DNA of 64,000 bases from Cinnamomum chago (taxonomy: Eukaryota; Streptophyta; Magnoliopsida; Laurales; Lauraceae): assembly GCA_038049695.1 (NCBI GenBank), contig CP142456.1, forward strand, positions 21,858,501 through 21,922,500. Direction: 5' to 3'. A model generated the notes under the pieces. The model made no database searches, was not told where the DNA came from, and saw nothing but the letters and a program-made list of their open reading frames with translations. Positions 3,791 to 48,444 of this stretch are shown one piece after another; position 1 is the stretch's first letter, and every line of letters begins with the position of its first letter. A program made the position numbers and the translations under genes.

Positions 3791-3879
3791 GACTTTACGG
3801 GCCTGGACCTTAACCTAATTAAAGTTACTATATTAAAACCTGAAGAACCCATGTGTATGTTATTTTTAACCATACATCT

Positions 3880-7504: not shown

Positions 7505-7506
<2 letters not shown>

Positions 7507-9550: not shown

Positions 9551-9559
9551 GTGTCACAC

Positions 9560-16127: not shown

Positions 16128-16139
16128 TGAGACGATTAA

Positions 16140-18720: not shown

Positions 18721-21700
18721 ATTGAGATAGAGAACAACACTATGAACACTACCATGATCAAATTTAACCATACAAATTGGTTACTTTGGAAACCAAAGAT
18801 GGATAATATACTCTATTGCAAAGACCTCTATGATCTCATTGAAGGGGACAAAGCTCGACCAAAAGATATGTCTGATGCAGATTGGAAAAATATGCATAGA
18901 AAGGCCATTGGTCACATTAGACAGTGGGTGGATAACCGCATATTTCACCACGTGTCTAATGAAACCAATGCAAATACCCTTTGGAAGAAGTTAGAAGATA
19001 AATATGAGAAGAAAACTGCAGTGAACAAAACTTTTTTTATTAGAAAGCTTGTGAACATGAAATTCAAGGAAGGTGGTAAAATTTAAGATCATATAAATGA
19101 TTTTCAATGTGTTGTGAATGAGTTAGCTACAATGAAGATGGTCATTGATGATGAGATGGAAGCTTTATTGCTTCTAAGTTCTTTGCCAGATACATGGGAG
19201 ACATTGGTTGTTTTTGTGAGTAACTCTACTCCAAACGGTATGTTATTAATGAGTCAGGTTACTAGCAACTTGTTAAATGAAGAAACAAGAAGGAAAACTG
19301 CAAGGACAAATAATGCACAGGCTTTTGTTGCTGAGAAAAGGGGGAGTAAAAGTAGGGGACCAAAGCGGGGTCTTGGCAAGTCTAGAGGTGGATCACAGAC
19401 TAAGAAAAAGTCTGGAAAATGCTTTCATTGTGGCAAGGAGGCCACATTAAGAAGAATTGCTTTGCCTTAAAGGAATAGAAAGAAGCCAACAATGAGAAGA
19501 AGAATGACACTAACACTACAACTGCTTTGGATACTGAAGTAGGGGTACTAGCTAGTGAAGATGAAGAGTGTTTGAGTGTTGCAGATGATCAGGTTGAGTG
19601 GGTTGTTGACACAACAACATCCTACCATGCTACTCCTTGTAAGGAGATGTTCACAACATACAAAGCAGGGGACTTTGGCACTATGAAGATGGGTAACACA
19701 AGTCATTCGAATATTATTGGGATCGGTGATGTTTGCATTCAAACCGATATTGGTTGCACAATGATGTTGATAGATGTGCGACATATTCTTTATCTGCGGT
19801 TGAATCTGATTTTCGGGACTTCATTTGACCGTGTAGGTTATGAGAGTTACTTCGGAAATGGCAAGTGGAAACTCACTAAAGGGTTTCTTATTTTTTCGAG
19901 AGGGAAGGCCTGTAATACGCTGTATAAGACGCATCTGAAGTTATGCAAAGGTATGTTGAATGCTGTTGAAGACAGATCCTCTCCAAATCTGTGACACACG
20001 AGACTTGGACATATGAGTGAGAAAGGACTGCAGTTGTTGATAAAAAAAGATTTGATTCATTATTCCAAAGGTACAACCTTAACCCTTATGATTATTGCTT
20101 ATTTAGCAACCAACATAGGGTTTCTTTCTCTAAAACATCAACGATAAAATCTAATGTGTTGGATTTGGTATATTCTGATGTTTGTGGTCCCATGAAGTGG
20201 AGTCATTGGGTGGCAATAAGGTTTTTGTCACATTTATTGATGATGCATCCAGGAAAGTATGGGTTTATGCGTTGAAATTGAATGATCAAGTGTTACAGGT
20301 TTTTCAACAGTTTCATGTCATGGTTGTAAAAGAAATAGGAAAGCTCTTGAAATGTGTCCGCACAGATAATGGTGGTGTGTGCACATCCAACCAGTTTAAA
20401 GGCTATTGTTTGAAGCATGGTATTCGACATGAAAGAACAGCTCCCGATACTCCACAGCACAATGGTGTGGTAGAGAGAATGAACCGCACTATTCTTAAAA
20501 GGATAAGATGCATGATTAGAGTGGCACGGCTACCCAAGCCATTTTGGGGTGAAGCTGTTCTGACTGTCGTTTACTTGATTAATAGGTCTCCCTCAGTTCC
20601 TTTGGATTTTGATCTTCCGGAGAGGATATGGACAGGTAAAGATGTTTCTTAGTCTCATTTGAAGGTGTTTGGGTGCAAGGTTTTTGCACATGTACCAAAG
20701 GAGCAGCGTTCAAAGCTGGATGATAAGGCAGTATGTTGCATTTTGCGTGGCTATGGTGGAGCTGAGTTTGGCTACAGATTATGGGATCCAGAGAAGAGAA
20801 AAATTATCAGAAGTAGGGATGTGGTGTTTCATGAAGACCAGTTCTTGTGAGACATTGAGAAGACTGAAATGTCTAAAGAAGTTGTTGATGGAGTGGTTTA
20901 TCTCACACCGACTCCTTCTCCAGTGCAGATTACAGGTGGAGAAGGTGGACAAAACCATTCGGATCGTGATGAGGCACGGGGGTTGCTAGATGAACAGGGT
21001 GTTGAGTAGGGGGAGCAGTCTCCTCAGTTAGAAATCATGGACCTCAGGTTAGGAGGTGTATTCGAGAGCATCAACCATCAACAAGATATCTTACAGCAAA
21101 TTACATTTTGCTTACTGATGAGGGGGAGCCAGAGAGCTACCTAAAAGCAAGAACTCATGAAGATAAAGATGAGTAGATGAAGGCTATGCAGGATGAGATG
21201 AGTTCTTTTAAAAGGAACAATACTTATGAGCTAGTGGAACTTCCAAAAGGCAAGAAAGTTTTGAAGAACAAATGGTGCTCAAGCTGAAGAGAGATGGCAG
21301 TGGAAAACTGATAAAGCACAAAGTATAGTTGTGATTAAAGGCTTTGCGCAAATGAATGGTATTGACTTCAATGAAATCTTCTTTCTAGTTGTGAAGATGA
21401 CTTCTATCAGAGTTGTCTTGGTCTAGTCGCCAGCATGGACCTTGAGCTTGAACAGATGGATGTGAATACTGCATTTCTTCACGGTGATCTAAAAGAAGAG
21501 ATCTACATGACTCAGCCTGAGGGGTTTGAGGTAGAAGGAAAAGAACAGTTGGTTTACAGGTTGAAAGAGTCTCTACGGGCTAAGACAAGCGCCGAGGTAG
21601 TAGTACAAGAAGTTTGATTCATTCATGGTGAGTCATGGGTACCAGAGGACAGCTGCAGATCACTGTGTTTATATTCATAAGTTTGGTAATGGCAAATTTA

Positions 21701-23050: not shown

Positions 23051-23150
23051 CTTTTTATCAACAACCACCTCTCACATAGCCAATGAAGATCAATCCATGG
23101 GCCGATAGGTTATCTTTACCACTTACATAATCCAGCTAGAAAAAAAAAAT

Positions 23151-23432
23151 GAAAATGACTTACCTCTCTTTCAATGTTTGAGGATTCTTAGATTTCAAGT
23201 AATTTGGATTGGTGTGGGGTTTTCTTCTTTTCAAAGTCTTTGGTAATTGATTCCCGTTAGGAATGAAAGGTGGATTGGAAGCAAAAGAAAAATGAAAATG
23301 ACTTACCTCTCTTTCAATGTTTGAGGATTCTTAGATTTCAAGTAATTTGGATTGGTGTGGGGTTTTCTTCTTTTCAAAGTCTTTGGTAATTGATTCCCGT
23401 TAGGAATGAAAGGTGGATTGGAAGCAAAAGAA
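23151..23432 (+). repeat. 143-bp tandem duplication, two near-identical units
   Basis: The segment from GAAAATGACTTACCTCTC to GCAAAAGAA occurs twice in a row with a period of exactly 143 bp. The near-identity points to a recent duplication within block X. Confidence 0.93.
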
Positions 23433-25325: not shown

Positions 25326-25582
25326 ATGGATCTTTCTACTACAAACTATGCAGCAACAATCTTCAAACTTGGTAGAAGTTTAAGTAGTGGGTCATCCAAA
25401 CAACGATCTACCAATAAATGGAAAAAGGCTTTCAATGTCATCTATTCCTGCAGAGTTATGCTCTCTCTTGTCAATAAAGAAATACTCTTCGTCATCTCAC
25501 GTAGTGCCTCATATACCTCCCTTTATGTCCAACCAGAAGATGATGGTCATGATAACACTAACAGTGATGGCAATGAGAGTAG
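25326..25582 (+). CDS. ACA12/13-like: ACA copy C, exon 1 first part: N-terminal regulatory segment (interrupted)
   Basis: The ATG in TTCCATGG opens a frame starting MDLSTTNYAATIF. Residues about 31-50 (NKWKKAFNVIYSCRVMLSL) form the basic amphipathic segment that matches the calmodulin-binding autoinhibitory region of plant ACA pumps, as in Arabidopsis ACA12 RRWRFAYAAIYSMRAMLSL. After GNES the frame runs into the LTR of a Ty3/gypsy element at 25583 and stops within a few codons. The host frame resumes in the same phase at 36880, so both halves belonged to one exon. In this haplotype the gene is disrupted. Known family role: calmodulin-regulated Ca2+ export. Confidence 0.9.
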
Positions 25583-26295
25583 TGTGTGGGGGCCCATTCC
25601 GTGAACCAGTTTCTCTTGGTCTCGGCTAGGGTGTGCTCGGTTAGCTACTGTTTGGGGGACCACGTCCCTTGATCTCGGCTACGATCCGATCTACTTCGGT
25701 CTCGGCACTACGTGCTGGTCTCGGCCAAACAGAATTCAGTTCGGCCGCACATACCGTTCAGTCTCGGCAATGCAAGCTCGGCAATGTAGAATTGCGCTTG
25801 CAGCTAATAGCCACGGCCCTATCGTGGCGAAGCCCAAGGAAGGGATCTGATGGGACTTCAGCCACCACCAGATCAGGGCAGGATCAGGCCCAATGTGACT
25901 GACATTAAATGCATTGTGGGCTGATCGGACCCACATTAAATGCAGTGTGGGCTATGATGGACCTTCATTAATGACTTTGTGGGCTGATGTGACCCAGGTC
26001 ACATCACCAAGCCCACTGGCATTCACCCAAGACTGTCTCATATATAAGGCACGAGCCAAAGGGAGCAGGGGGTAAGCATTCTCACAGAGACACTGAGTCT
26101 TTCTTCTTTCTTCTTCTTCTCCGATCCATTGCTAACTTAAGCATCGGAGAGCCCTGCGCTGCCCATAGCCAGGGTCCTCTGACCTTTGTCTTTCTCCTCT
26201 TTCAGGCTCAGGTCGTCGCAGCTATCTCCTCCATGCATTGAGTAAGTCCTAAGAGGCATCCTGATCTTGTGAGTATTTTTATTTCTGCACTTACA
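25583..26295 (+). repeat. 5' LTR of the Tat element
   Basis: 713 bp, running TG to CA, with a TATA box (CATATATAAGG) near 26038-26048 as the likely promoter core. It is identical to the 3' LTR except at two sites. Confidence 0.97.
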
Positions 26296-26297
26296 AT

Positions 26298-26315
26298 TGG
26301 CGCCGTCTGTGGGAA
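26298..26315 (+). other. Primer-binding site of the Tat element
   Basis: TGGCGCCGTCTGTGGGA begins two bases after the 5' LTR. Its first nine bases match the complement of the 3' end of plant tRNA-Asp, a primer often used by Ty3/gypsy elements. Confidence 0.7.
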
Positions 26316-26355
26316 ACGATTTCTATAATCTTTCCTATTCCTATTCCTAAATACC

Positions 26356-29300
26356 ATGACGAGGAGAACTGCGAAAAGCGGAGAGACTTCCAAGACAAAG
26401 CATGCAGGACCGCCCCCTGACCAGCAGAGGGCTGGGAAGCAAGTAGTCGCAGAGGACGATGCTGAACGCGCTCTCATCCGGATCAACGTCCAGCAGCGTG
26501 ACCTCCGTACAGAGTCCGCTCCCGGGAGGGGAGACGCCCAGCAGCCTGCAGGTCTCCTGACAGGGCGAGACCAGCGGGATAAGTCCCCAGTGGTCGATGG
26601 ACCACGCCCTTCAGGTCAGGAAGGACACGTCGAGGACGTTGAGGATGAAGAGGATGATGACTACAACCCTGGCGACAGCTTGAACTCCACCCTTCGGGAG
26701 ATTAAGGCACAGAACGAGGCCCTCGGGGAAAAGGATGCTCTAATCCGCCAGCTCCAGCAGCAGCTGGAGAAAGCTGCGGGCTCAGCAAGGCAGCAGCAGC
26801 GGACTCATAGGGAGCAGTCCCAGCAGCAACGGTCTCGACAGCAGCAGCGGACTCGTCAGGAGCAGTCCCAGCAGCAGCGGACTCGTCAGGAGCGATCCCA
26901 GCGACAACATGAGGAGAGGGTTACTCGTGTTACGCGCATCTCTTCCTCAAAGGAGGATCTGAGGGACCACTTGAACAGGAAAGGGGACGACCGAACCCGA
27001 GATGAAGGCTCAAGCACCAGCCGTAGCTATTCCAGGAAGGCGTCCGAAACCATTCCGGAGAACATGTACCGAGACCAGGAATGGCTGGACGCACACATAA
27101 GGGAAACGGTCCAGCGCAACCTGGAGGTAGCCGGCTTCGGCCGAGACCAAAAGGATGCTTGCTGTAACCCCGTTGATCTCGGTGCGTCTCCTTTCTCCCA
27201 AGACATCAGGAGGTACCCCTTACCCAAGAAGTTCACCGTACCAAGATTCGTCACCTATGATGGGGTCTCGGATCCAGCTACGCATCTCAGGCACTTCTCC
27301 CAGAGGATGTCTGTCTGGGGAGATGAGGGTCACCTGAACTGTAGAGTTTTTTCTTCCAGTCTGGGTGACCTCCCCCTGAAGTGGTTCTGTGCACTACCGG
27401 AGGGGGCCATTTCGAGCTGGCAGCAGCTCCAGCAGTCCTTCTTGAAGAAGTTCCAGGCCTACAGAGTCCTTCCGAAGACAGATGCAGACATCATGGCCTT
27501 GAAGATGAAGCAAGGAGAGAACGTCACCCAGTTCGCCAAGCGGTTCTGGGCGGTCTACAGTCAGATAGAGAGCTCCAAGGACGAGGTTGCCGTCTTCGCA
27601 TTCCAGAATGCCTTGCTGCCAGACAGCGATCTCCGCAAGGACTTGGCTAGGAACCCGGTGTCTTCCATAGCAGCGCTCATGTCCATCGCCAACCGGTACA
27701 TTGCCCAAGAAGATGACCAGATCCGCGCTCGGGAAAACCATGGAACCGCGCTGAAAGACCGGGGTGGGAGGACATCCAAGCAAGACGGGGGACCGTCTCG
27801 GAGGAGTGAACCTCGGAGAGAGGAGCGGCGGAGAGATGAGCCAAACAGGCGTTGGGCGCCCACCAGCTCGGCAAGGCCCCATGCTTTCGTCTCGGAAAGA
27901 AACAAGCGACCCAGGCTGATAGAGGACGCATTCCAGGCGGTCAACACGGTCTTCAAGATGCCAATCCACAAAATCATGTATAAGATCAAGAGCAGGCCGT
28001 ACTTCAGCTGGCCAGAGCCCATGCAAGGCGACCCTTCTAGACGAGATCAGACGAAGTTCTGTTCCTATCACAAGGAGGGCGGCCATAAGACTGAAGATTG
28101 CAGGATACTGCGGTCGCATTTAGAGAAGCTTGTCCAGGATGGACACCTGCAAGAGTTTGTCAGGAGAGAAACCAGGGCCGACACCCGAGCCCCGCGCCGA
28201 GACGAAGGGGGTCACGACAGCGACGGGACAGAGAAGATAATTGACGTTATCCATCTGGCACCCCCGCCCAAGGGGAGTAACCAAGCACGTGCCGAAGCCA
28301 GGAAAGCCTCTCACGGCAAACATGTCATGGCCGCCGAACTCAGTTCAGCACCGAAAAGGGCTCGGAGGGAGCGTCCCGAGATCAGGTTTACTGATGCAGA
28401 TCTAGAAGGGGTGCAGCTCCCCCACAACGACCCCCTGATCGTGACTCTGAAGTTCGATTGCTCTAAGCAGGGCGTGAAGAATTGCACTGTGAAGAAAGTC
28501 CTTGTTGACCCCGGTAGTTCTTCCGAGGTCCTCTATTTCGACAGCTTTCGAAGGATGGGACTGACGGAGAAAGATCTGCAGGAGGCTCGAATTCCCCTTA
28601 TCGACTTCAGCGCCAAACCAGTCTATCCTAAGGGGAAAGTGACATTCAAGGTCGAGGTCGGTGGCGCGTCTGTCATGGCAACCTTCATGGTGATCGACGC
28701 ACCCTCTCCCTACAATGCTATAATGGGCAGGTCTTGGCTCCACAGCCTGGAAGCAGTCCCTTCCACCCTCCATCAGAAGCTGAAATTTCCATGGGAGGGA
28801 AAGAGCGGCCGAATTGAGATTATCACGGTAAGAGGAGATCAGCAGGCGGCTAAGCTGTGCTTGACAGCTGTGGTACCTGGGGAGCAAGAGCCCAAGGAGG
28901 TCAATGTGGCCGAGATGGAGAAGAACCTGGAGCAGGGGCTGGATAAGCTCGGCCAAGATCCGGGCAGGAAGAGCGTCGAGGAATTGGCCGAAGTCCGGAT
29001 CGACCAGAAGGACCCGGATCGGTTCTTTCTACTCGGCAGCCAGCTTGGAGAGCCGGAAAGGTCCGAACTGGCCCAGTTCCTGATGCAGAACAGAGATGCC
29101 TTCGCCTGGACGCCTCAGGAGATGCCTGGCGTCGACCCCGAGGTAATGTGTCACAAACTAAATGTTGACCCTAACCACAAACCTGTGATGCAGAAGGCAC
29201 GGAGAACTGGGGTCCCGCAGACCGAAGCCGTCGTCGAGGAAGTGGATAAGCTGCTTGAGGCCGGAGCTATCAGGGAGGTTCAATACCCGAAATGGTTAGC

Positions 29301-32283
29301 CAATCCGGTGGTCGTCAGGAAGAAGACTGGCAAGTGGAGGGTGTGCGTCGACTTTACCGACCTCAACAAAGCCTGTCCCAAGGACAGCTTTCCCCTCCCG
29401 AAGATTGACCAGTTGATCGACGCCACGGCCGGGCACGACAGAATGAGCTTCCTCGACGCCTACCGCGGCTATCATCAGATCCCACTATTTGGGCCAGACG
29501 AAGAGAAAACAGCTTTTATCACGCCCAGGGGAACCTACTGTTATAAGGTGATGCCGTTTGGGCTGAAGAATGCAGGGGCCACCTACCAGAGACTTGTCAC
29601 CAATATGTTTCACGATCAGCTCGGCAAAACCGTGGAGGTTTACATCGATGACATGGTGGTCAAGTCCAAGCAGGCGCGGGTGGTCAAGTCCAAGCAGGCG
29701 CGGGATCATCTGTCAGACTTGGCCGAGATCTTCGCCACTCTAAAGAAGTTCCGGCTGAAGCTTAACGCCTCGAAGTGCGCCTTCGGTGTTGGTTCCGGCA
29801 AGTTTTTGGGCAGCTTGGTTACACGCAGAGGCATTGAGGCAGACCCAGATCAGATCTCAGCTATCCTCAGAGTGCAGAGTCCAACTTCGGTCAAGGAGGT
29901 CCAGAAGCTTACAGGAATGGCCGCGGCACTGAATCGCTTCATCAGCAAATCTTCAGATAAGTGCCGACCTTTCTTTCATCTTCTTAGAAAAAATTCTAAA
30001 TTCCAATGGACCCCAGAATGTGACCACGCCTTGCAGCAGCTCAAGGCTTACCTTTCATCACCACCGTTGTTGTCAACCCCGACCCACGAGGAGACCCTGT
30101 ATTTATACTTAGCGGTCTCGGATCATGCGGTCAGCTCGGTCCTCATCCGAGAAGAGGACAAGGTTCAGAAACCGGTATATTATACGAGCAAGACCCTTAT
30201 TGATGCCGAGACCAGGTATCTGCCTCTGGAGAAGCTCGCCTTGGCGCTCGTTAGCGCCTCGCGAAAGCTCTCCCATTACTTTCAAACCCATTCTATTGTG
30301 GTTGTTACGGAGCACCCACTCCAATCTGTTTTCAAGAAGGCTGACTTTTCAGGAAGAATCTCCCGATGGGCTGTCGAACTAGGGCAGTATGAGATTCAGT
30401 ATCAGCCACGGACAGCAATAAAAGCCCAGGTTCTGGCAGATTTCCTCGCCGAGTTTGATTCAAGTTCGGCACCAACCCAGCTCGGCACCGAACTGGGGGG
30501 CGAGGAGCGTGGGGCTCCCACGAGTTCCGAACAATCACCATCTCAAGCCGAGACCCCAGTTTGGAAAATCTTCGTCGACGGATCTTCCACCTCGAGAAGA
30601 GCCGGAGCAGGAGTTGTTCTCCAATCGCCAGAAGGACTGGTCATCGAGCAGGCTCTGACCCTGGACTTCAAGGCGTCAAACAATGAAGCTGAGTACGAAG
30701 CCCTTTTAGCCGGACTTAACAGTGCCAATATCCTCGGAGCTCAACAGCTGGTGGTCTTCAGTGATTCACAGTTGGTGACAAACCAGCTGACTGGGAACTA
30801 CCAGGCTCGCGACGACCGGATGGCCGCGTACTTGGCCCTGGCTAAGAAGCTGCTGGCACAATTTCAGTCGGCCGAAGTCAGGCAGATCGGCAGAGAAGCG
30901 AACTCTCACGCATACGCCTTGGCTAACCTGGCCAGTGCTGTTGAGGCAGGGAAAAAGAGGAGCGTCGAAGTCGGATCGCTAGCTGCGCCCAGCATTGAGC
31001 TCTGTTCACCTCGGGAAGTGTTATGCATCGGTCTCGGTCCGAGCTGGATGGACCCTATTATCACCTACCTGAAGGACGACAGGCTTCCCGAGGACAGTGG
31101 TGAGGCCCACCGGGTCAGACTCAAGGCAGCTCGGTTTTGGCTATCTCCCGAAGTCAAGCTCTACAGGAAATCGTTCTCGGGACCGTACCTCCAGTGCGTC
31201 CATCCAAGTAAGGTCGAGGACCTCCTTTTCGAGATACACGAAGGAATCTGCGGGAGCCATATCGGAGGAAGATCCCTATCTTACCGAGCCATCAGCCAGG
31301 GTTACTGGTGGCCGTATATGCAGAAAGATGCGCAGGTATATGCGAAGAAGTGCGAGAAGTGCCAGAAGTTCTCACACTCTCTCCATCAGCCCGCGCAGGA
31401 TCTCAGCCCGCTCTCTAGCCCGTGGCCATTCGCCCAGTGGGGGCTCGACATAGTGGGCCCGCTCCACCGAACCCCAGGGAACAAGAGATGGCTTATTGTG
31501 GCGACAGATTACTTCACCAAATGGATCGAAGCAGAGCCACTTTCATCCATCACAGAGCGAGACTCCAAGAATTTTGTGTGGAAGAATGTCGTCACAAGGT
31601 TTGGCATTCCCAGAGCGCTGGTTTCGGACAACGGAACTCAGTTCGACTCTAAACTCTTCAAGACCTTCTGCCAGGATCTCGGCATCCGAAACCATTACTC
31701 CACGCCAGCTTACCCACAGAGTAACGGCCAGGCCGAGATCTCCAACAAGGTGATCCTCGATGGGCTCAAGAAGCGGCTGGACCAAGCGAAGGGGAGATGG
31801 GTGGAAGAACTGCCGAGCGTCCTGTGGGCTTACAGGACCACTCCAAGGCGTTCCACTTCGGCTACCCCCTTCTCGCTCGCCTACGGGATGGAAGCGGTCA
31901 TCCCTTTGGAGATCGGCCTCCCCACTCTGAGGTCCGAACTCTTTGACCAAGGACAGAACGAGACTAACTTGGCCAGGGAACTGGATTTGGCAGACGAAAG
32001 AAGAGAAGCGGCGGCAGTCAGACTGGCCGTCTACCAGCAGCGGCTAGCCAGGGGCTATAACCAGAACGTCAGAGAAAGGAAGTTCTGCGTGGGGGAACTG
32101 GTTCTCAAGAAAACGCTCCCAGCCGACAGGGATCCGAATCAAGGGAAGCTAGCGCCGAATTGGCATGGTCCGTTTAAGGTCACTTCCATTGCTGGACGGT
32201 CGGCTTATCGGCTCGAAGACATGGAGGGACGTCCGCTACCGAGACCATGGAACGCCTCACACCTCAAAAAATTCTATTTTTAG
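26356..32283 (+). CDS. Gag-pol polyprotein of the Tat element (1,975 codons)
   Basis: A single frame begins MTRRTAKSGET. A charged, glutamine-rich N-terminal region leads into a retrotransposon gag domain (about residues 290-400, with FTVPRFVTYDGVSDPATHL) and a zinc-finger-like CSYHKEGGHKTEDC near residue 568. Protease follows near 716-722 (VDPGSS, where many families have DTGAS). Reverse transcriptase has YIDDMVV at about 1096. Next come the Ty3-type RNase H, a second archaeal-type RNase H starting near 1405 (IFVDGSSTSRRAGAG), the integrase HHCC finger near 1628-1670 and the integrase core (LDIVGPL, SDNGTQFDS, SNGQAE, about 1695-1795). There is no chromodomain at the end. It looks whole. Confidence 0.95.
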   Translation: MTRRTAKSGETSKTKHAGPPPDQQRAGKQVVAEDDAERALIRINVQQRDLRTESAPGRGDAQQPAGLLTGRDQRDKSPVVDGPRPSGQEGHVEDVEDEEDDDYNPGDSLNSTLREIKAQNEALGEKDALIRQLQQQLEKAAGSARQQQRTHREQSQQQRSRQQQRTRQEQSQQQRTRQERSQRQHEERVTRVTRISSSKEDLRDHLNRKGDDRTRDEGSSTSRSYSRKASETIPENMYRDQEWLDAHIRETVQRNLEVAGFGRDQKDACCNPVDLGASPFSQDIRRYPLPKKFTVPRFVTYDGVSDPATHLRHFSQRMSVWGDEGHLNCRVFSSSLGDLPLKWFCALPEGAISSWQQLQQSFLKKFQAYRVLPKTDADIMALKMKQGENVTQFAKRFWAVYSQIESSKDEVAVFAFQNALLPDSDLRKDLARNPVSSIAALMSIANRYIAQEDDQIRARENHGTALKDRGGRTSKQDGGPSRRSEPRREERRRDEPNRRWAPTSSARPHAFVSERNKRPRLIEDAFQAVNTVFKMPIHKIMYKIKSRPYFSWPEPMQGDPSRRDQTKFCSYHKEGGHKTEDCRILRSHLEKLVQDGHLQEFVRRETRADTRAPRRDEGGHDSDGTEKIIDVIHLAPPPKGSNQARAEARKASHGKHVMAAELSSAPKRARRERPEIRFTDADLEGVQLPHNDPLIVTLKFDCSKQGVKNCTVKKVLVDPGSSSEVLYFDSFRRMGLTEKDLQEARIPLIDFSAKPVYPKGKVTFKVEVGGASVMATFMVIDAPSPYNAIMGRSWLHSLEAVPSTLHQKLKFPWEGKSGRIEIITVRGDQQAAKLCLTAVVPGEQEPKEVNVAEMEKNLEQGLDKLGQDPGRKSVEELAEVRIDQKDPDRFFLLGSQLGEPERSELAQFLMQNRDAFAWTPQEMPGVDPEVMCHKLNVDPNHKPVMQKARRTGVPQTEAVVEEVDKLLEAGAIREVQYPKWLANPVVVRKKTGKWRVCVDFTDLNKACPKDSFPLPKIDQLIDATAGHDRMSFLDAYRGYHQIPLFGPDEEKTAFITPRGTYCYKVMPFGLKNAGATYQRLVTNMFHDQLGKTVEVYIDDMVVKSKQARVVKSKQARDHLSDLAEIFATLKKFRLKLNASKCAFGVGSGKFLGSLVTRRGIEADPDQISAILRVQSPTSVKEVQKLTGMAAALNRFISKSSDKCRPFFHLLRKNSKFQWTPECDHALQQLKAYLSSPPLLSTPTHEETLYLYLAVSDHAVSSVLIREEDKVQKPVYYTSKTLIDAETRYLPLEKLALALVSASRKLSHYFQTHSIVVVTEHPLQSVFKKADFSGRISRWAVELGQYEIQYQPRTAIKAQVLADFLAEFDSSSAPTQLGTELGGEERGAPTSSEQSPSQAETPVWKIFVDGSSTSRRAGAGVVLQSPEGLVIEQALTLDFKASNNEAEYEALLAGLNSANILGAQQLVVFSDSQLVTNQLTGNYQARDDRMAAYLALAKKLLAQFQSAEVRQIGREANSHAYALANLASAVEAGKKRSVEVGSLAAPSIELCSPREVLCIGLGPSWMDPIITYLKDDRLPEDSGEAHRVRLKAARFWLSPEVKLYRKSFSGPYLQCVHPSKVEDLLFEIHEGICGSHIGGRSLSYRAISQGYWWPYMQKDAQVYAKKCEKCQKFSHSLHQPAQDLSPLSSPWPFAQWGLDIVGPLHRTPGNKRWLIVATDYFTKWIEAEPLSSITERDSKNFVWKNVVTRFGIPRALVSDNGTQFDSKLFKTFCQDLGIRNHYSTPAYPQSNGQAEISNKVILDGLKKRLDQAKGRWVEELPSVLWAYRTTPRRSTSATPFSLAYGMEAVIPLEIGLPTLRSELFDQGQNETNLARELDLADERREAAAVRLAVYQQRLARGYNQNVRERKFCVGELVLKKTLPADRDPNQGKLAPNWHGPFKVTSIAGRSAYRLEDMEGRPLPRPWNASHLKKFYF

Positions 32284-32395
32284 TCTCTGTACTTGTACAA
32301 CGCTTCTGGATTCAATGAAACTACAGTTCTCCACAATTTGTAGCAATCTGGCATCCTGACAGTGACAATGGTGCGAAGTTGGAAGACCGTCCAAG

Positions 32396-32980
32396 GCCGG
32401 CACTCAGCCACCTAGACGAGTATCCGCCACGGCCCATATCTAAGGTTGGCACTCAGCCACCTAGATGAGTTGCCGAAACGGCCCATGTCTAAGGTTGGCA
32501 CTCAGCCACCTAGACGAGCTGCCGAAACGGACCATGTCTAAGGCCGGCACTCAGCCACCTAGACGAGTATCCGCCACGGCCCATATCTAAGGTTGGCACT
32601 CAGCCACCTAGATGAGTTGCCGAAACGGCCAATGTCTAAGGTTGGCACTCAGCCACCTAGACGAGCTGCCGAAACGGACCATGTCTAAGGCCGGCACTCA
32701 GCCACCTAGACGAGTATCCGCCACGGCCCATATCTAAGGTTGGCACTCAGCCACCTAGATGAGTTGCCGAAACGGCCCATGTCTAAGGTTGGCACTCAGC
32801 CACCTAGACGAGCTGCCGAAACGGACCATGTCTAAGGTCGGCACTCAGCCACCTAGACGAGTTTCCGAAACAGCCCATGTCTAAGGCTGGTACTCAGCCA
32901 CCTAGACGAGCAGCCGAACGTGTTATGGTTACGGTTGGCACTCAGCCACCTAGACCAGCCGAAACGGCACCAGTCTTCCA
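32396..32980 (+). repeat. Higher-order tandem repeat: 49-bp units in 147-bp triplets
   Basis: Units of exactly 49 bp share GGCACTCAGCCACCTAGA. Three unit types (A with GAGTATCCGCCACGG, B with GAGTTGCCGAAACGG, C with GAGCTGCCGAAACGGACC) repeat in the order ABC three times from 32396 to 32836. They are followed by about three diverged units. It lies between the pol end and the antisense ORF. Tandem repeats in the 3' region of Tat elements are known to seed satellite DNA. Confidence 0.95.
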
Positions 32981-33243
32981 ACACGGAAATCTGGTTTCGC
33001 CGAAATACATGGGGCTTCCAAAGGGTCAGCGCTCGCAGAGAACCCTGATCAGGTCGGTCTACTCTAGTCCGAAGTCACACCCAAATTCACAACACTCACG
33101 GAAAGCGTACAAAGGAAAGCAAGTAAAAGCCACACCACACAGGAGAAAAATATGAGAAAGAGTCTTTCATTGATAGCATTGATTTACATCGAGACAGTTT
33201 GAACCAAAGACTACATTTTATAAAGAAAAGAAAAAAGAGGAAG

Positions 33244-35469
33244 TCAAGTCGATGGCTCTGCTTCTAGGTCCTCGATGACGACCACGGCGGCCTCGGCTTG
33301 AGGAGTTTCTTCAACGGGGTCAGGCGTTGGCTCGGAAGGGACTTCGGCCGGGGTGGCAGGGGTCTCGGCCAGGGCCTCGTCTAGGGGCTCCTCTCCGAGC
33401 TCGGGGAGATTCTGATGTATCGGATCATCTGCAGGAACCCCCATCTTCTTCAACACGGCCTTGCAGCCGAGCCGGTACAGCTTCGGGCTGAGTGCCGTGA
33501 TTTGATCAACGTAAATCTTCGCAGCTTCCTCAGTCCCCTCCAGGAAGGCGGCATCGACCTCAGCTTTTTTCGATGCAAGGAGTTCCTCCTTCGATGCAAG
33601 GAGTTCCTCCTTCGCCTTCCTTTCCAGCTCCAGCTCAGCCTTGAACCCCGCCGAACTCTTCTCCTCTGCCTGGAGCTTCGTTTGCCATTCGAAGCCCTCT
33701 GACCTTGCTTTGCAGAGGTCGCTGGCCATCATATCTGACTGAGCCTTGAGCTCCGCAGTCTTGGCCGCCTCCGCCTTCAGCTCCTCCTTGGCCGCTCGCA
33801 GTTCGGATTCGGCTTTCTGTTTTTCCTTTGCCAGGCGAGCCAACCGACTGTCCTCCTCCGCTATCCTGTCCGCGACTATCTGGAGCCTTTGGACAGCCTG
33901 CAGCGGATCAAACAAAAGAAGCTCAGCACGAAAACAAGAAATATCAAAAGAGAGAAACACCTGTGACCAGGAAAGTCGGGCACTTACAGCGAGGGAGTGC
34001 TGTATGGTCCTCATAATCAGCAGGGGGGAGTCTTCCGACCTGTGCCTCTCCATGTCCCTGGGGAGTGCACAGGCTCGGGTGAGCGCCGCAATGACATCTG
34101 GGCTCCCCACCAGTTTGTCCTCAGCATTTAGTGGCCTCCCCTTCCTCAGCTCCATGTCCGGCCTGAACTCGGCCGGTTCGGCACCCGAGGACGTTGCCGC
34201 CTGGGGCTCGGAGCGACTCTCTACCAGAGGAACTGCCGGAGCGGGCATCACGTCCACCGCCCTCTCCCTCGCAGCTTGGGGTGAATGTCGCCGTGATCGC
34301 TCCTCCTGGTCCGGCCCCTTCCCCTTCGCCTTTTTCCTCGGCCTCTCACTTTCCAAGTCTGGGGGAGGTCGGGCCTCAACTCTGGCAGGGACGATGGTCC
34401 CGAAGGAGGGCGGGGCAGTGCGGGGTGCGGCAGCCTGTCTACCGCTGCCGACGACGGCGTCCGCCAGATTCCGCGGCTGAAACGCGGGCCTACGCCTCTC
34501 CATATTGTCCACTTCGGCCTCGGCTCCGGAAGTATAGTTCTCAACTTCCCTTGTCGGAGAGTCTACCTCGGCTCCGGAGGTATATTCTTCAATTTCCCTT
34601 AGCGGGATGCCCGTGACCACGGCCAACGTTGCGGACGCTTCCGCAACCGTGACGGTCCCGCTGGTTTCTGCTGGATCGGGGGCGAATCTCTCCGGGTTGC
34701 CGGATTTCCGTGTGTAAGACACGTATCTCGGCTCGTACTTCAGAAGAGAGTAGGCAGCTCTTGTGTGGTGGCCGTGGTAGCAGTACACCTTGGTCAGCCA
34801 AGGTGAGTGCCTTCTCCAACCGTTCAGCTGGGCTTCGCGCTTGCGTTCGGAAAGGCCTGCGAAAAACAGCCGAGTTAGGATCTGGCAGCAGAAATCAAAC
34901 ATAAGAAAGAAATCGGAAACCCAGGGGGTTAGGTCTTTACTCGGTGGAGTCCCGAGGCGTCGAGGGACTCGGACCCTCCTAGTTGCTTCGGTCTCGGTCT
35001 CGCCGAACTCCCAGTTTCCCGAGACGAGCAGGCGGTCATCTCCGGCGTATTTATTGGAGTCCTCCAGCGCCGTGACGAGGGGTTGGCACCTCGCCTTGAT
35101 GCGAAGATAATAGGTGCCCACCTCCCTAGACTTGCAGAGGTCATATATATCCTCTATATCATGGACGCCGAGGCTGATGTCTAGAATCCTATTCAGCTCG
35201 GCGATGCCCATGATGATCTTATACCCATTGGGCATTAACTGACAGGGGCTAAGCCTCCAGGTCTCCAAACAAGACCTAAGAAGGGGGGCCAAGGGGAATC
35301 TGACCCCACCCTCGATCACGGCTATCAGGGGAAACGGCATCCAGCCGTTGCGAAATGAGTAGATGGAGGGGTCGGCTGCCATGATCTGGACATCGTCTGG
35401 GATCATGTAGACTCTCCTAAGAGTGGCCAGGCCCGACTGGGAATCTATCCAGTGAGTAAAAATCCCCAT
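33244..35469 (-). CDS. Antisense extra ORF of the Tat element (741 codons), Transposase_28-like N-terminus
   Basis: The minus-strand frame starts MGIFTHWIDSQSG just left of the pol-distal non-coding zone and reads against gag-pol. Its N-terminal part (about residues 45-130, with GGVRFPLAPLLRSCLETWRL and SPCQLMPNGYKI) resembles the plant Pfam family called putative gypsy-type transposon (Transposase_28). The C-terminal half is rich in A, E, K and L (about residues 540-690) and likely coiled coil, ending in an acidic tail. Two internal stretches, near 33890-33990 and 34850-34925, are bounded by splice-like signals and may be small introns that keep the frame open. The function is unknown. Extra ORFs in this position are known for Tat elements such as Grande. 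Confidence 0.8.
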   Translation of the reverse strand: MGIFTHWIDSQSGLATLRRVYMIPDDVQIMAADPSIYSFRNGWMPFPLIAVIEGGVRFPLAPLLRSCLETWRLSPCQLMPNGYKIIMGIAELNRILDISLGVHDIEDIYDLCKSREVGTYYLRIKARCQPLVTALEDSNKYAGDDRLLVSGNWEFGETETEATRRVRVPRRLGTPPSKDLTPWVSDFFLMFDFCCQILTRLFFAGLSERKREAQLNGWRRHSPWLTKVYCYHGHHTRAAYSLLKYEPRYVSYTRKSGNPERFAPDPAETSGTVTVAEASATLAVVTGIPLREIEEYTSGAEVDSPTREVENYTSGAEAEVDNMERRRPAFQPRNLADAVVGSGRQAAAPRTAPPSFGTIVPARVEARPPPDLESERPRKKAKGKGPDQEERSRRHSPQAARERAVDVMPAPAVPLVESRSEPQAATSSGAEPAEFRPDMELRKGRPLNAEDKLVGSPDVIAALTRACALPRDMERHRSEDSPLLIMRTIQHSLAVSARLSWSQVFLSFDISCFRAELLLFDPLQAVQRLQIVADRIAEEDSRLARLAKEKQKAESELRAAKEELKAEAAKTAELKAQSDMMASDLCKARSEGFEWQTKLQAEEKSSAGFKAELELERKAKEELLASKEELLASKKAEVDAAFLEGTEEAAKIYVDQITALSPKLYRLGCKAVLKKMGVPADDPIHQNLPELGEEPLDEALAETPATPAEVPSEPTPDPVEETPQAEAAVVVIEDLEAEPST

Positions 35470-36149
35470 CTCTGGATCTAAGGAACCCTAACGATCCCTA
35501 GAGGTCTAAGCCGTGGAATGTCTGAGAAACGGAGGAGACCTTAGGTGGGGTGAGGACAGAAATACAGAATGAAAAGAGAGAAGGATCGAGGCAGGGAGAC
35601 TCACAGACTCGGGCGAAGTCACAACTCAGGCCGCTGATCCCTCGCTGGTCCTGAAGGGAGTCCTGGGCGAAGCTAGGAGGCGATGGAGGTGGTTCTGGCA
35701 GTGAAGGTTCCGGCGAACAGAGGTTCTAGCAGAGCTTCGACAATGTTCGTTTGCAGAGATGACAAAGGGAGAAGACAGAAGTGAAATATAAAGGGGGGGA
35801 ACGGGCGCCATTCCGGAATTCGAAGCGGGACACGCGTGAGATGTCGCCTCGGCTTGCGTTGCACGCCCCCTCGAAAGGACAAGAGAACCCACCAGGCAAT
35901 AACGCGTGGCGCTGCGGCGATGATGGTCCGCCTTCCCATGCTAATCATAGCCCCGCATTTATTGCCCCCTTTATTATCTCTGGCAGACGAAGCAGCGGCG
36001 GCGTCCGGCGCCGAATAAGTCAGAACCCTTAAACAAAATCGGATGGAAGGCGAGCACTGTCCGTCTCGGGAGATCGGTTCAGTTCTCAACCCTAGTGCGG
36101 GGGATCGGTCCAGCTCTTAACCTTAGTGCCCGAGAGAGCCCTAGAGGTC

Positions 36150-36166
36150 AAGAACTGAGGGGCTAT
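36150..36166 (+). other. Polypurine tract of the Tat element
   Basis: Purine-rich AAGAACTGAGGGG, followed by CTAT, directly precedes the 3' LTR, where plus-strand priming is expected. Confidence 0.7.
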
Positions 36167-36879
36167 TGTGTGGGGGCCCATTCCGTGAACCAGTTTCTCT
36201 TGGTCTCGGCTAGGGTGTGCTCGGTTAGCTACTGTTTGGGGGACCACGTCCCTTGATCTCGGCTACGATCCGATCTACTTCGGTCTCGGCACTACGTGCT
36301 GGTCTCGGCCAAACAGAATTCAGTTCGGCCGCACATACCGTTCAGTCTCGGCAATGCAAGCTCGGCAATGCAGAATTGCGCTTGCAGCTAATAGCCACGG
36401 CCCTATCGTGGCGAAGCCCAAGGAAGGGATCTGATGGGACTTCAGCCACCACCAGATCAGGGCAGGATCAGGCCCAATGTGACTGACATTAAATGCATTG
36501 TGGGCTGATCGGACCCACATTAAATGCAGTGTGGGCTATGATGGACCTTCATTAATGACTTTGTGGGCTGATGTGACCCAGGTCACATCACCAAGCCCAC
36601 TGGCATTCACCCAAGACTGTCCCATATATAAGGCACGAGCCAAAGGGAGCAGGGGGTAAGCATTCTCACAGAGACACTGAGTCTTTCTTCTTTCTTCTTC
36701 TTCTCCGATCCATTGCTAACTTAAGCATCGGAGAGCCCTGCGCTGCCCATAGCCAGGGTCCTCTGACCTTTGTCTTTCTCCTCTTTCAGGCTCAGGTCGT
36801 CGCAGCTATCTCCTCCATGCATTGAGTAAGTCCTAAGAGGCATCCTGATCTTGTGAGTATTTTTATTTCTGCACTTACA
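36167..36879 (+). repeat. 3' LTR of the Tat element
   Basis: 713 bp, with two mismatches to the 5' LTR. Its TATA box lies near 36622-36632 and it reads in the same direction as the host gene, so transcription from it would enter the remaining ACA exons. Confidence 0.97.
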
Positions 36880-37059
36880 AGTAGAAAAAATGGAGGGTTC
36901 TTGCATGTGGACTCAAAAGCACTGGGCAAAATTGTCAGGGACAAGGACATGGAGTCTCTTCATCGACTGGGAGGAATCCAAGGAATTACTGCAGCACTTG
37001 AAACGGATGCTGAGAGAGGAATACATGGGGATACACAGGATTTCAATCGTCGGCAGGAG
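36880..37059 (+). CDS. ACA12/13-like: ACA copy C, exon 1 second part
   Basis: The first five bases (AGTAG) are the second copy of the target duplication. The frame then reads KNGGFLHVDSKALGKIVRDK and GGIQGITAALETDAERGIHG, the cation-ATPase N-terminal domain that precedes TM1 in ACA pumps. It ends DFNRRQE, followed by a GT donor (GAG|GTACTTATT) at 37060. The phase is the same as at the end of the first half. The first in-frame ATG in this half is at 36949 (MESLHRL), before TM1. An out-of-frame ATG at 36890 precedes it. Confidence 0.9.
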
Positions 37060-39208
37060 GTACTTATTCACTTTCTTCTTTTTGCCGGTTAAAGTTGATC
37101 ATGGTTCGGTTAAACAGGGGACCTACTCGAGCGAAACATCGAGGGTCCTTGCTAGTTGGTCCGCCCACTTATTAAAAATTGAGCCTTTTGCATATACCAT
37201 CATGAGGCTTTCAGGATTTATAAATAGCCCGCTATGGTATTAGTATTATTAAATATGCCCATATGTGTTCATTTTAATACCTTTCGTGTTGGCATGTCCC
37301 CAAAATCAGTAGCCTTCCGACTACCAAAAGTTTTTAGAGTGAAATAACAGTTTTACCCATCTTTATATCCCTATATGTATAAATTAACAAACTTGAACTT
37401 ATTTTTCTCTAAAGCTTCTAAAATCAATAATTACATTTAGTTGGAGAGAGTGACCACACGTAAATTTATGACCGCACGTAAATCTATTTTATCAATACAT
37501 GACTTATTTCATTGAATCCAAATCGATCATAATGACAATCAACGCATGTGCTTATAATTGGTTATAATTGATTCAATCCGTGCTTAACCCACCGTTAAAT
37601 TGATGAAAGTCTCAAAATACATGATTAAGCTTCATATGTATTAAAGAGTTATTGAGAGAGATCGTTGGGACTTGGGATAAAATGATGATATTTTTATAAA
37701 TAATAATATGCTGACTTTTGTTTAACCGGTGTAATGGCAAAGCTGTCATTTCATAAAAGCTCAATACAATACTCATGTTGGTTATCCAATTCCATTAGGA
37801 ATAATGATTTTGGAGACATGAAAGGTATTGAAATGAAAAACTAGAGGCCTATTTACAAATTATATAAACCTTAGCAGGGTATATACAAAAAACTCTTAAA
37901 AATTTAAGCTTCCCCAGATAAATTACAACCTTGTTGTATAGGATTGACAATTTATAAGATATTAAAGAGAAGCGATTTGGATTTAATTTTGGCTGTGGTT
38001 ATGATTTTGAAAGTAAGTTATTCTTTTTCTTTTTTTTTTTCATATCTTTTCAATTTTCTCTGCACTTATCTCATGCAAATTATCTACTTTATCTTTTTAT
38101 AGAAACCACTCAGGTCTACTTTCCACTTTTACCTTGTTCATGGGTTGGGCTAGGTTGAGGATTATCTAGGCCCAGCCCGACTTCTGAACTGTTAGACCAA
38201 TCTCGACCGAAGCCCAGATCGGGCCATAACTGACTGGCCCAATCCTAACCCACTCAAAACATATTAAGCCCGAGCCCGGCCTGAGTTAACGTTATAACAG
38301 AAAAAAAAAAAAAAAAAAGGGTCTTTTCCGTTTGTATTGGCCTCTATCTCAACTGGTTTGGGTACTTATGCCTCAATGAGATGTCACTTGTTCAAGTCCT
38401 GCCTCCCGCTCTCTTCCCACAATTACTTCTACACTTAGGGGTAGGCTGGGCTTGGGCTCTCTATCAGTTAATCCAAGCCCGGCCCATTTATTAAAAAGGC
38501 CCAAATAAAATAATCCGAGCCCAGCCTGAGTACTAAAATCTTAAGGTCCGAGCCCAGGCCAAAGGGGGCTGGGCCGGATTCAGGCTCGGACTGGCCAGTC
38601 CATGAACACCCCTACCCACTTTAAAACTTTTTAAAGTAGAGCAATACCTCTCTTTTTATCCAAACTCTACAATTCCCTTTAATTCTTCTCTTTTCTTGCT
38701 ATGTCATTAGCCGTTAGATTACATAAACAAGTACTCCCATTAGTCTCATAACCTTTTATCCTTTAACTGTCTTTCTAAAATCTATGGATATTTTTTTAAT
38801 GCATAAATATTTAAGTTGCAATGTTGGTCGTACATGTGCTGAGCACGGGTTATTATGCTAGTATCTACTTTAATATATAGGATTTGGACCCACCATTGAA
38901 TTGATTTCTTATAAAACAAGAGAATATGAGTTTGGTTTGGGTATTCAAGTCAAGATTTGAATGGACCCAAATTGAAAGATGATGCTCAGGCATATGAAGA
39001 TTTCATAAGGGTATTAAAATCATCCATCCACCTATCAAAAATATAAACCTCTCAAAATAAATTTCACCATTTTTATGGGCTTTGCTGAATTTCACTTAAA
39101 CGTCAAATAAGAATTAGGCCCACTGGCAGATTGGTCATTTTCAAAACATGGGAAGGAATTGTTACAACATTATATCAACATCACCTATGGTGAAATTTGT
39201 CCAAGGTA

Positions 39209-39366
39209 ACCCCAAGGGATAGCTCAGTTGGCCTAGGACCACGGTTTGTACCCGGAGGTTGTAAGTTCGAAACTGTACTACCACACTGGGGAGCTACAGA
39301 GGAGTTTCCCTCTGGGCCCAGAGGGATTAGTCCAACCCAAAGAGTTGGGAATCCACCGATAGCAAA
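39209..39366 (+). mobile_element. tRNA-derived SINE, copy 2
   Basis: The A box GGGATAGCTCAGTTGGCCTAGG and B box GTAAGTTCGAAAC are followed by the same body as copy 1 (ACTACCACACTGGG, CCCTCTGGGCCCAGAGGGATTA and CCAAAGAGTTGGGA). A (TA)n run follows instead of an A tail. It lies in the ACA copy C intron in sense orientation. Confidence 0.72.

Positions 39367-39398
<32 letters not shown>
39367..39398 (+). repeat. (TA)n-type microsatellite
   Basis: An alternating TA run with a few interrupting T bases directly follows the SINE. Confidence 0.9.
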
Positions 39399-40480
39399 CC
39401 AGGGCAGATTGATGAGCTCGATCCAAACCGTGAACCCCCAACAACGTCAACGGTGGGTTCAAAATTGGCATTGTTGAATGGGAACCACAACAAGTCTGGC
39501 TTGTAATCTCTCTCACCAATTCAGATAAGTTTTAAGGTGTTAAACATCTTGAACCCAACTCATTTATAATAGCCCTAAAATGTTAGCACCCTATATCAAA
39601 TGGATATCATTTGCCCCCCAATATAGAGAAAGTGACACATAACACACTTCCTTGGTCTCTGCATATTCTCAATCAATTGATTTTGAATTGAAGCTTTCAA
39701 CAAGTACGATGCCCCTTTGGCACAGATTTTCTTCACTTGCATAATTTTTTTTGACAATCTTCAATTATCATTGAAGAACCAATTAAAGAAGCAACACCCT
39801 ATATTAAAAATTTTAAAACCCTCCTTTGATACCACCTATTACTTTTCTTTCTTGATCAACAACTGACAATGATACGCCATTAAAGAAAATTAACTGCAAA
39901 CAAATTTAGCAATGCATCAAATAGCACAAAATATACTTGCACCTATAGATGAGAGAGAAAAGTAATTAAATCGACTAGTCTTACAACTGATCATCTCAAA
40001 GCATCTTATTTATTGTTTGAATAAGCAAATGAGCCCCCACAGAGACCTCTACCATTATTATAAATTATTTAAAATAAAAAAAATTAAGTTTCAAATTTCA
40101 AATTCAAATTAAAGTTTCATTTCTGTCTTGTGATGTGCCAATGTTGATTCTTAACAGAATTTTTTTTTCTTATTCTATCAGCCTTCTATTGTGCTGGAAG
40201 AGAACCAAAGAAGCACCACCCTATAAATAAAAACGAAAACTCATACCTTTGATAACACCTATTACTCTGTTTTTTAGCTCAAGAACTGATAAAATTATGT
40301 TATTATGGAAAATTGCATGCCTGCAAACTCGTCAATGTATCAAATAGCACAATATATACATGCACTGGCTTTCTGTTTTATTGTTTGAATAAGTAAATGA
40401 AATCCACAAAAGAACTATATCTTTATAGTATAATTTCAAAAGATTCTCTCCAGTAATGTGTCAATGCTGATTGTCAATAG

Positions 40481-43150
40481 GCATTTGGTGCAAACACATA
40501 CAAGAAGCCGCCCGCGAAGAACTTCTTCTACTTCATCTTGGAAGCTTTCAAAGACCGGATAATCCTCATCCTTCTTGTCTGTGCAGCTCTCTCCTTGGGA
40601 TTTGGGATCAAGGAGCATGGCCTCAAGGAAGGGTGGTATGATGGAGGAAGCATATTCATTGCTGTCTTTTTAGTTGTTGCTGTCACTGCTGTCAGTAATT
40701 TTCGTCAATCTAAACAATTTCTGAAGCTATCCGACAAGAGTAATGACATCAAGGTTGATGTGGTGAGAGACAATCGACGCCAACAGGTATCAATCTTCAA
40801 CATTGTTGTAGGTGATGTGGTCTTTCTAAAGATCGGCGATCAAATTCCTGCAGATGGGTTGTTCTTGAGTGGCCACTCCTTACAGGTGGATGAGTCGAGC
40901 ATGACAGGTGAAAGCGACCATGTAAACACCAGTGCTGATAAGAACCCATTTCTAATATCTGGTGCAAAGGCGGTAGATGGGTATGGAACCATGCTTGTGA
41001 CCTCTGTGGGCATGAACACAATGTGGGGCGAAATGATGAGCTCAATAAGTGATGATTCGAACGAGCAAACACCTTTACAAGACCGGCTAAACAAGCTCAC
41101 ATCATACATTGGAAAGGTCGGCCTGTGTGTTGCTTTTCTCCTTCTTGTTGTGCTGTTGGTGCGTTATTTCACAGGCAACACCCAAGATGAGAATGGAAAT
41201 AGAGAGTTCAATGGAAAGAAAACGAAGATTGAAGAGGTGTTCAACTCAGTGGCCACTATGTTTGCCGCTGCTGTTACAATAGTGGTAGTGGCAATTCCTG
41301 AAGGTTTGCCATTGGCGGTCACTCTCACTCTTGCTTACTCGATGAAGAGAATGATGGCTGATCAAGCAATGGTTCGGAATCTTTCAGCTTGTGAAACCAT
41401 GGGCTCGGCCACAACCATCTGCACTGACAAAACAGGTACGTTGACATTGAACAAGATGACAGTCACAAAATTTTGGGTTGGGGAAGAAGAATTTTCTAAA
41501 GACATTTCTACAGTAGCCCCAAAAATTCTCAAATTGCTTTACCAAGGCGTTGGTCTAAACACATCAGGCAACGTTTACCAAGCCAATTCAAGTTCTTCCC
41601 CTGAATTTTCTGGTAGCCCAACCGAAAAAGCAATTCTTTCTTGGGCAGTGATGGAATTGGGCATGAGTATGGAAGAATTAAGGCAAAGCTACACCACTCT
41701 TAATGTTGAAACCTTCAATTCAGAGAAGAAGCGAAGTGGAGTTTCAATAAGAAAGAATAGCGATAAATCAACACATGCCCATTGGAAAGGAGCTGCTGAA
41801 ATGATATTGGCTATGTGTTCCAATTCCTATGAGAGCGATGGGACCATAAAACCCATTAATCGACAAACTAGGATGAAGTTGGAGCAAATAATTGAAGGAA
41901 TGGCAGCGCATAGTCTTCGATGCATTGCTTTTGCCTACAAACAAATAACGGAGGAAGATGCAATCCATGATGATAACGAAGGAAAAGTCGGAGAAATTGC
42001 AGAAGATGGCTTGACACTATTGGGGCTTGTGGGCATCAAGGACCCATGCAGGCCAGGAGTCCAAATGGCTGTGGAAGCTTGTAAAGGCGCTGGTGTCAAC
42101 ATCAAAATGATAACAGGGGACAATATTTTCACTGCAACAGCCATAGCCATCGAATGCGGGATACTTCGGGCTGATCAAGATTTAAAAGAAGCGGTTGTGG
42201 AAGGCAAACAATTTCGTAATTTCTCAAAACAAGAAAGGATGGAAATGGTGGACAGAATATCTGTGATGGCAAGGTCCTCTCCATTAGACAAGCTTCTAAT
42301 GGTTCAATGCCTAAAAGAAAAAGGTCATGTAGTCGCAGTCACTGGCGATGGTACAAATGATGCTCCAGCTTTGAAAGAAGCCAATGTTGGACTTTCAATG
42401 GGAATTCAAGGAACTGAAGTGGCAAAGGAGAGTTCAGACATTGTCACCTTGGACGATAACTTTTCTTCAGTCGTAACTGTTTTAATGTGGGGAAGGGGCG
42501 TCTACAATAACATTCAGAAATTCATTCAATTTCAGCTCACTGTGAATGTTGCTGCCCTAGTGATAAACTTTATCGCAGCAGTTTCTGCGGGTGAAGTTCC
42601 ACTCACAGCAGTCCAGTTGCTATGGGTGAACCTAATAATGGACACTCTAGGTGCATTGGCTCTAGCTACAGAGCGCCCCACCAAGGAGTTAATGGATAAA
42701 AAGCCAGTTGGGCAAACTGAACCACTGATTACAAACATTATGTGGAGAAACCTTGCTGCTCAAGCTCTTTATCAAATTGCCATCTTGCTAACCTTGCAAT
42801 TCAAAGGTCGTTCGATTTTTGGTGTGGATGAGAGCGTCAAGAACACCCTTATTTTCAATACTTTTGTTTTGTGTCAGGTATTCAATGAGTTCAATGCAAG
42901 AAAGTTAGAGAAGAGGAATGTGTTCAAGGGAATTCATAAGAACAGACTGTTTATAGGGATTGTGGCGATGACCATTGTTCTTCAAGTGGTGATGGTGGAG
43001 TTACTTAAGAAGTTTGCGGATACAGAGCGCCTAAGCTGGGGGCAATGGGGTGTGTGCATTGGAATAGCAGCGGTATCATGGCCGATTGGTTGGGTTGTCA
43101 AGTGCATTCCAGTAGCTGATAAACCATTTCTTAGCCTGCTCAAGCGTTAG
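40481..43150 (+). CDS. ACA12/13-like: ACA copy C, exon 2: catalytic body of the type IIB Ca2+-ATPase
   Basis: The exon starts AFGANTYKKPPAKNFF and runs 889 codons to TAG at 43148-43150, without a break. With exon 1 the host coding parts total about 1,033 codons, equal to Arabidopsis ACA12. Numbering on that total, TGES of the actuator domain is at about 286, PEGLPLAV of TM4 at about 417, the phosphorylated aspartate in DKTGTLT at about 460, SEKKRSG and KGAAE of the nucleotide domain follow, and TGDGTNDAP is at about 765. TM5-TM10 end the protein. All catalytic residues expected for a P-type ATPase are present. An AATAAA lies near 43301. Because exon 1 is split, a normal full-length product is not expected from this haplotype. 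Confidence 0.95.
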   Translation, partial: AFGANTYKKPPAKNFFYFILEAFKDRIILILLVCAALSLGFGIKEHGLKEGWYDGGSIFIAVFLVVAVTAVSNFRQSKQFLKLSDKSNDIKVDVVRDNRRQQVSIFNIVVGDVVFLKIGDQIPADGLFLSGHSLQVDESSMTGESDHVNTSADKNPFLISGAKAVDGYGTMLVTSVGMNTMWGEMMSSISDDSNEQTPLQDRLNKLTSYIGKVGLCVAFLLLVVLLVRYFTGNTQDENGNREFNGKKTKIEEVFNSVATMFAAAVTIVVVAIPEGLPLAVTLTLAYSMKRMMADQAMVRNLSACETMGSATTICTDKTGTLTLNKMTVTKFWVGEEEFSKDISTVAPKILKLLYQGVGLNTSGNVYQANSSSSPEFSGSPTEKAILSWAVMELGMSMEELRQSYTTLNVETFNSEKKRSGVSIRKNSDKSTHAHWKGAAEMILAMCSNSYESDGTIKPINRQTRMKLEQIIEGMAAHSLRCIAFAYKQITEEDAIHDDNEGKVGEIAEDGLTLLGLVGIKDPCRPGVQMAVEACKGAGVNIKMITGDNIFTATAIAIECGILRADQDLKEAVVEGKQFRNFSKQERMEMVDRISVMARSSPLDKLLMVQCLKEKGHVVAVTGDGTNDAPALKEANVGLSMGIQGTEVAKESSDIVTLDDNFSSVVTVLMWGRGVYNNIQKFIQFQLTVNVAALVINFIAAVSAGEVPLTAVQLLWVNLIMDTLGALALATERPTKELMDKKPVGQTEPLITNIMWRNLAAQALYQIAILLTLQFKGRSIFGVDESVKNTLIFNTFVLCQVFNEFNARKLEKRNVFKGIHKNRLFIGIVAMTIVLQVVMVELLKKFADTERLSWGQWGVCIGIAAVSWPIGWVVKCIPVADKPFLSLLKR

Positions 43151-48351: not shown

Positions 48352-48444
48352 CCTCCAAAGTGTATGACCACATCTAACAAAATGATCACCTATCCAAGAC
48401 TCTACAACCTCCTCAATCTTCCTCGAGAAACACCAAGCAACTCC

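Follow-up and report, generated by a model that had tools for sequence, protein, structure and literature searches.

A plasma-membrane-type Ca2+-ATPase gene divided within its first exon

The window analysed here, a stretch of 64,000 nucleotides from Cinnamomum chago, contains a Ca2+-ATPase gene whose first exon is divided by a complete LTR retrotransposon of 11,297 bp (25583-36879; Table 1). The host ATG lies at 25326, and the frame that it opens runs for 257 nt, that is 85 codons and two further nucleotides, up to the break. To the right of the element, with the second copy of AGTAG left out, the phase is kept up to the GT donor at 37060. Joining the two flanks with a single AGTAG yields an exon of 432 nt and 144 codons, which has no stop in the host frame (compared with 1 and 14 stops in the other two frames) and which, when its mononucleotides were shuffled, remained stop-free in that frame in only 1 of 5,000 trials. 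The complete restored coding sequence specifies 1,033 amino acids and has neither internal stops nor frameshifts.

Table 1. Features of the divided Ca2+-ATPase gene, the inserted element and the related pump copies, in window coordinates
Feature	Position	Strand	Description	Basis or remark
Copy A, related Ca2+-ATPase C-terminus	2-715	+	237 codons + stop, cut by window edge	92.4% amino acid identity
Third Ca2+-ATPase copy	15916-16404		decayed fragment	stops in all three frames read over 15901-16290
Host exon 1, left part	25326-25582	+	85 codons + 2 nt, ending with left AGTAG	
Left target-site duplication	25578-25582	.	AGTAG	direct sequence comparison
5' LTR	25583-26295	+	713 bp	
gag-pol ORF	26356-32283	+	1975 aa, single frame	
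gag	27346-27615	+		Pfam, window coordinates worked out from residue ranges
RT	29314-29811	+		Pfam, window coordinates worked out from residue ranges
RH (RT_RNaseH)	30007-30390	+		Pfam, window coordinates worked out from residue ranges
Second RNase H (RVT_3)	30574-30933	+	in two halves	Pfam, coordinates from residue ranges
Integrase zinc finger	31201-31377	+		Pfam, window coordinates worked out from residue ranges
Integrase core	31426-31716	+		Pfam, window coordinates worked out from residue ranges
Tandem repeat array	32389-32959	+	49/147-bp	
Antisense ORF	33244-35469	-	741 aa	weak PF04195 match at residues 49-92
3' LTR	36167-36879	+	713 bp; TATATAA at 36625	
Right target-site duplication	36880-36884	.	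AGTAG	direct sequence comparison
Host exon 1, right part	36885-37059	+		joined frame, ACA8 alignment
Host intron	37060-40480	+	3,421 bp, phase 0, GT...AG	
Host exon 2	40481-43150	+	2,670 nt, 889 codons + stop	type IIB Ca2+-ATPase core

Exon 2 matches Arabidopsis ACA8 (PDB 8qmp) with 1,117 bits and aligns to ACA8 residues 148-1037, and the type IIB core scores 973.8 bits with the NCBIfam equivalog TIGR01517 for PMCA-type pumps, for which the cut-off is 507.05. The joined protein aligns to ACA8 without a gap from residue 100 onward, across the position of the host intron, and the catalytic motifs PEGLPL, DKTGTLT, TGES and TGDGTNDAPAL are all present in the restored coding sequence. The sequence-only reading of this locus had proposed that the host encodes a plasma-membrane-type Ca2+-ATPase, that the element splits its first exon with coding sequence in the same phase on either side, and that the remaining coding parts are undamaged; each of these proposals agrees with the alignments and frames described above. 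As regards gene structure, the long single exon resembles, by description only, the intron-less genes of Arabidopsis ACA12 and ACA13 as these are characterized in PMC5920303, although the gene here is interrupted by one 3.4-kb intron. The one long exon thus suggests that the host gene may be of an ACA12/ACA13-like type.

The piece that now lies to the left of the element behaves differently from the rest of the protein in these comparisons, since exon 2 and exon 1 from residue 100 align to ACA8 whereas the first 85 host residues have no match there. Searches with this 85-residue piece returned no Pfam family at E values up to 0.1 and no PDB sequence at E values up to 10. None of the four Pfam families listed for residues 1-292 falls within residues 1-99, and the first Pfam domain of the joined protein is Cation_ATPase_N at residues 115-182. 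Because residues 1-99 are without a homologue in the searches run, support for the join at the codon 85/86 break comes from the frame and the duplication and not from homology. In ACA8, residues 1-130 have been taken as the regulatory domain (PMC6255812, in its treatment of that protein), and PMC5920303 describes Arabidopsis ACA12 as deregulated and devoid of the N-terminal calmodulin-binding autoinhibitory domain, and ACA13 as probably deregulated. The earlier suggestion that the N-terminal regulatory segment of the pump was left on the far side of the element holds as far as position is concerned, whereas sequence comparison gave its content no confirmation, with no recognisable domain from Pfam or PDB; the 85 residues could, by position only, fit a putative regulatory segment.

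Target site, clade and age of the inserted element

The copies of AGTAG at the two ends of the element agree perfectly and abut the LTR ends, and no longer perfect repeat was found at the ends when lengths of 1-14 were tried. When aligned, the two LTRs differ at two of their 713 positions (LTR positions 205 and 456), at both of which the 5' LTR has T and the 3' LTR has C. These comparisons, together with the second RNase H discussed below, confirm what had been claimed from the letters of the DNA, namely a perfect target duplication, two 713-bp LTRs with two mismatches and a young Tat element. That the join of element and host was instead produced by an assembly error is barely conceivable, given that a perfect 5-bp duplication sits exactly at both LTR ends and that the host halves join in frame.

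A second RNase H (aRH) besides RH is a mark of the Tat clade, and its location between RH and integrase is a mark of Ogre/Retand within Tat, according to the classification given in PMC6317226. Both RVT_3 and RT_RNaseH are found in the element, and the order of the Pfam domains places aRH between RH and integrase (Table 1). By its domain content, the element is assigned to the Tat clade of Ty3/gypsy. Retand elements are described as having an antisense ORF between pol and the 3' LTR, and a tandem array (PMC11963269); in the element, the stretch from pol to the 3' LTR measures 3,883 bp and holds both a tandem array and an antisense ORF. Ogre elements are described in PMC6317226 as having two ORFs with a gap averaging about 274 bp, and a placing within Ogre was rejected in view of the single ORF of 1975 aa found here instead of two separated ones.

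The dimensions of the element likewise lie within the ranges that PMC11963269 gives for Retand, both in the LTR (713 bp; range 315-1,194) and in the internal region (9,871 bp; 7,380-12,869), as well as in the distance from pol to the 3' LTR (2,933-6,566). A single gag-pol ORF, as in the element here, occurs in 37 of the 63 clusters of that study, among which the Retand cluster of Dimocarpus longan also has a mean LTR of 713 bp, with an internal region of 9,540 bp and no tandem array. The element departs from the Retand described there in its TRP28 (PF04195) match in the antisense ORF (E 0.0044), which at 17.7 bits lies below the cut-off of 26.2, and in a reverse transcriptase with an eight-residue tandem duplication. 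The aspartic protease matches (PF13975, E 0.074; PF13650, E 0.076) are also below their cut-offs, and NCBIfam returned nothing above cut-off for either the antisense ORF or the protease piece. Retand is the placing within Tat that these features fit best, short of proof because the TRP28 and protease matches fall below the cut-offs.

The duplication in the reverse transcriptase is a perfect in-frame tandem repeat of 24 bp (29655-29704, plus strand), which adds eight residues right after YIDD and appears as an eight-residue gap in an alignment with the Ty3 reverse transcriptase. The gag-pol ORF remains open despite this duplication.

The two differences in 713 bp correspond to an LTR divergence K of 0.0028 (95% 0.0003-0.010). 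At substitution rates of 1.5e-8 to 2.5e-9 per site and year, the insertion would have an age of the order of 0.1-0.6 My (0.09-0.56), with wide limits of 0.01-2.0 My over the four rates tried, an estimate that depends on two substitutions and on assumed rates. In the time that the LTR divergence implies, the coding sequence would be expected to acquire some 4.4 neutral substitutions and about 0.18 new stops. With so few stops expected, the undamaged state of the remaining gene counts as weak evidence; it is compatible with a young insertion and is no demonstration of continued function. Since its LTRs differ, the element would fail the recent-activity filter as set out in PMC11963269.

In a search of the 64-kb window for further copies at the DNA level, the element gave only matches internal to itself, and a 30-nt LTR pattern had no match in viral_contigs. 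At the protein level, its integrase gave one weak match in the window, at 20212-20487 with 31% identity. That match falls inside 19479-20649, where two plus-strand frames resemble, by eye, pieces of a Copia-type protease and integrase.

Effect of the insertion on the pump gene

Translation of the occupied gene from its own ATG gives 92 amino acids, from the 85 host codons and seven more, before a stop at 25602. We consider it very probable that a Retand-type element integrated into exon 1 of an ACA Ca2+-ATPase gene from a small local group and broke that copy. On this reading of a Retand-type (Tat, Ty3/gypsy) insertion, the occupied allele would yield at most the 92-aa N-terminal fragment and no pump, and the related copy upstream may compensate for the loss. 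A null allele would be by far the likeliest outcome, and we infer, as the sequence-only reading had suggested, a loss of the gene and the possible persistence of the insertion as a polymorphism.

A near-normal pump could remain if the element were spliced out within a new intron, and 112 of the 2,940 donor/acceptor pairs tried around it restore the frame. However, by score matrices that are rough, with percentiles relative to the sites of the window, the donor reaches at most the 78th percentile in all 112 restoring pairs, while the host donor stands at the 98th and the host acceptor at the 89th. No such pair reaches the 80th percentile at both sites, one exceeds the 70th at both, and four of the five best-scoring pairs among those listed use the acceptor at 37057, leaving an exon of 3 nt. 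Such a rescue by splicing is extremely improbable.

Alternatively, the occupied allele could be non-null if a promoter in the 3' LTR drove expression from Met108, giving an N-terminally truncated, deregulated or constitutively active pump of 926 aa. The 3' LTR does contain TATATAA, and the host-frame ATG at 36949 (Met108) opens 926 codons if the transcript is spliced at the host intron. This start lies just ahead of Cation_ATPase_N and retains the conserved pump domains, and ACA8, ACA9, ACA10 and ACA13 with the N-terminus deleted are recorded as active in yeast in PMC5920303. However, three earlier ATGs (36817, 36890 and 36905) stand in its way, of which that at 36890 starts a frame of 83 codons running across Met108, and profile searches gave no autoinhibitory domain in the removed piece. 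Young LTRs, moreover, are usually silenced. A truncated pump is for these reasons very improbable, but if it were made, the occupied allele would supply a Ca2+ pump that lacks its N-terminus and is under the control of the element.

The event underlying the favoured null allele is of an ordinary kind, a single recent insertion of an LTR retrotransposon into a coding exon. In cucumber, an LTR-element insertion is reportedly the cause of the loss of function of CsGL3 (PMC4696102); that case concerns another gene and a mutant trait is present, whereas the insertion here has no known trait. LTR insertions in Ca2+-ATPase genes were absent from the literature matches listed, which is no proof of their absence from print. 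The locus offers a clean and datable example of a large Retand-type element disrupting a coding exon, and presence/absence genotyping would be simple because the sequence of the empty site is exactly defined. A single insertion in a single assembly, it leaves general views unchanged.

Related pump copies and other features of the window

Two further Ca2+-ATPase sequences lie in the window (Table 1). The synonymous divergence between copy A and the split copy is 0.34-0.46, more than 100 times the divergence of the LTRs, and the duplication that separated them therefore long predates the insertion. The related copy at 2-712 and the decayed fragment at 15916-16404 would suit a history in which the split gene was already losing function or redundant before the insertion, so that little was changed by the element. 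In the same direction, when ACA8 is used as an outgroup, the 17 aligned differences comprise 7 replacements in the split copy, 3 in copy A and 7 unassigned, a count that omits one further difference in the unaligned last residue. However, the 7-to-3 split is non-significant (P 0.34) and as compatible with some earlier relaxation as with none, the 1,033 codons are without stop or frameshift, and the catalytic motifs looked for are all kept. Over the C-terminal 237 codons the two copies have a dN/dS of about 0.08-0.12, which also argues against prior decay, though as a value that cannot be assigned to one copy. On balance, we regard decay or redundancy before the insertion as unlikely.

Several other features of the window were recorded. 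A stretch of the host intron (39207-39350) is related to one at 2439-2587 (74% alike), and from its motifs we take the intron stretch to have the look of a tRNA-derived SINE; no tRNA genes were found in the window, and Rfam gave no match there at gathering score. A tandem 143-bp unit at 23140-23432 (99% alike) has part similarity to 2615-2681, a run of 30 G occupies 7475-7504 with a comparable G-rich run near 24670, and degenerate repeats of TTTAGGG, the plant telomere unit, lie at 49579-49648. Other mobile-element sequence includes a minus-strand Copia remnant at 9802-12576, with RVT_2 at 10748-11326, between 211-bp direct repeats that are 96% alike, and a minus-strand frame at 47797-48444 with an RVT_3 RNase H domain, perhaps LINE-derived. 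Finally, a hAT transposase in two frames, with zf-BED, RNase-H-like and dimerisation domains, lies at 53600-55647.
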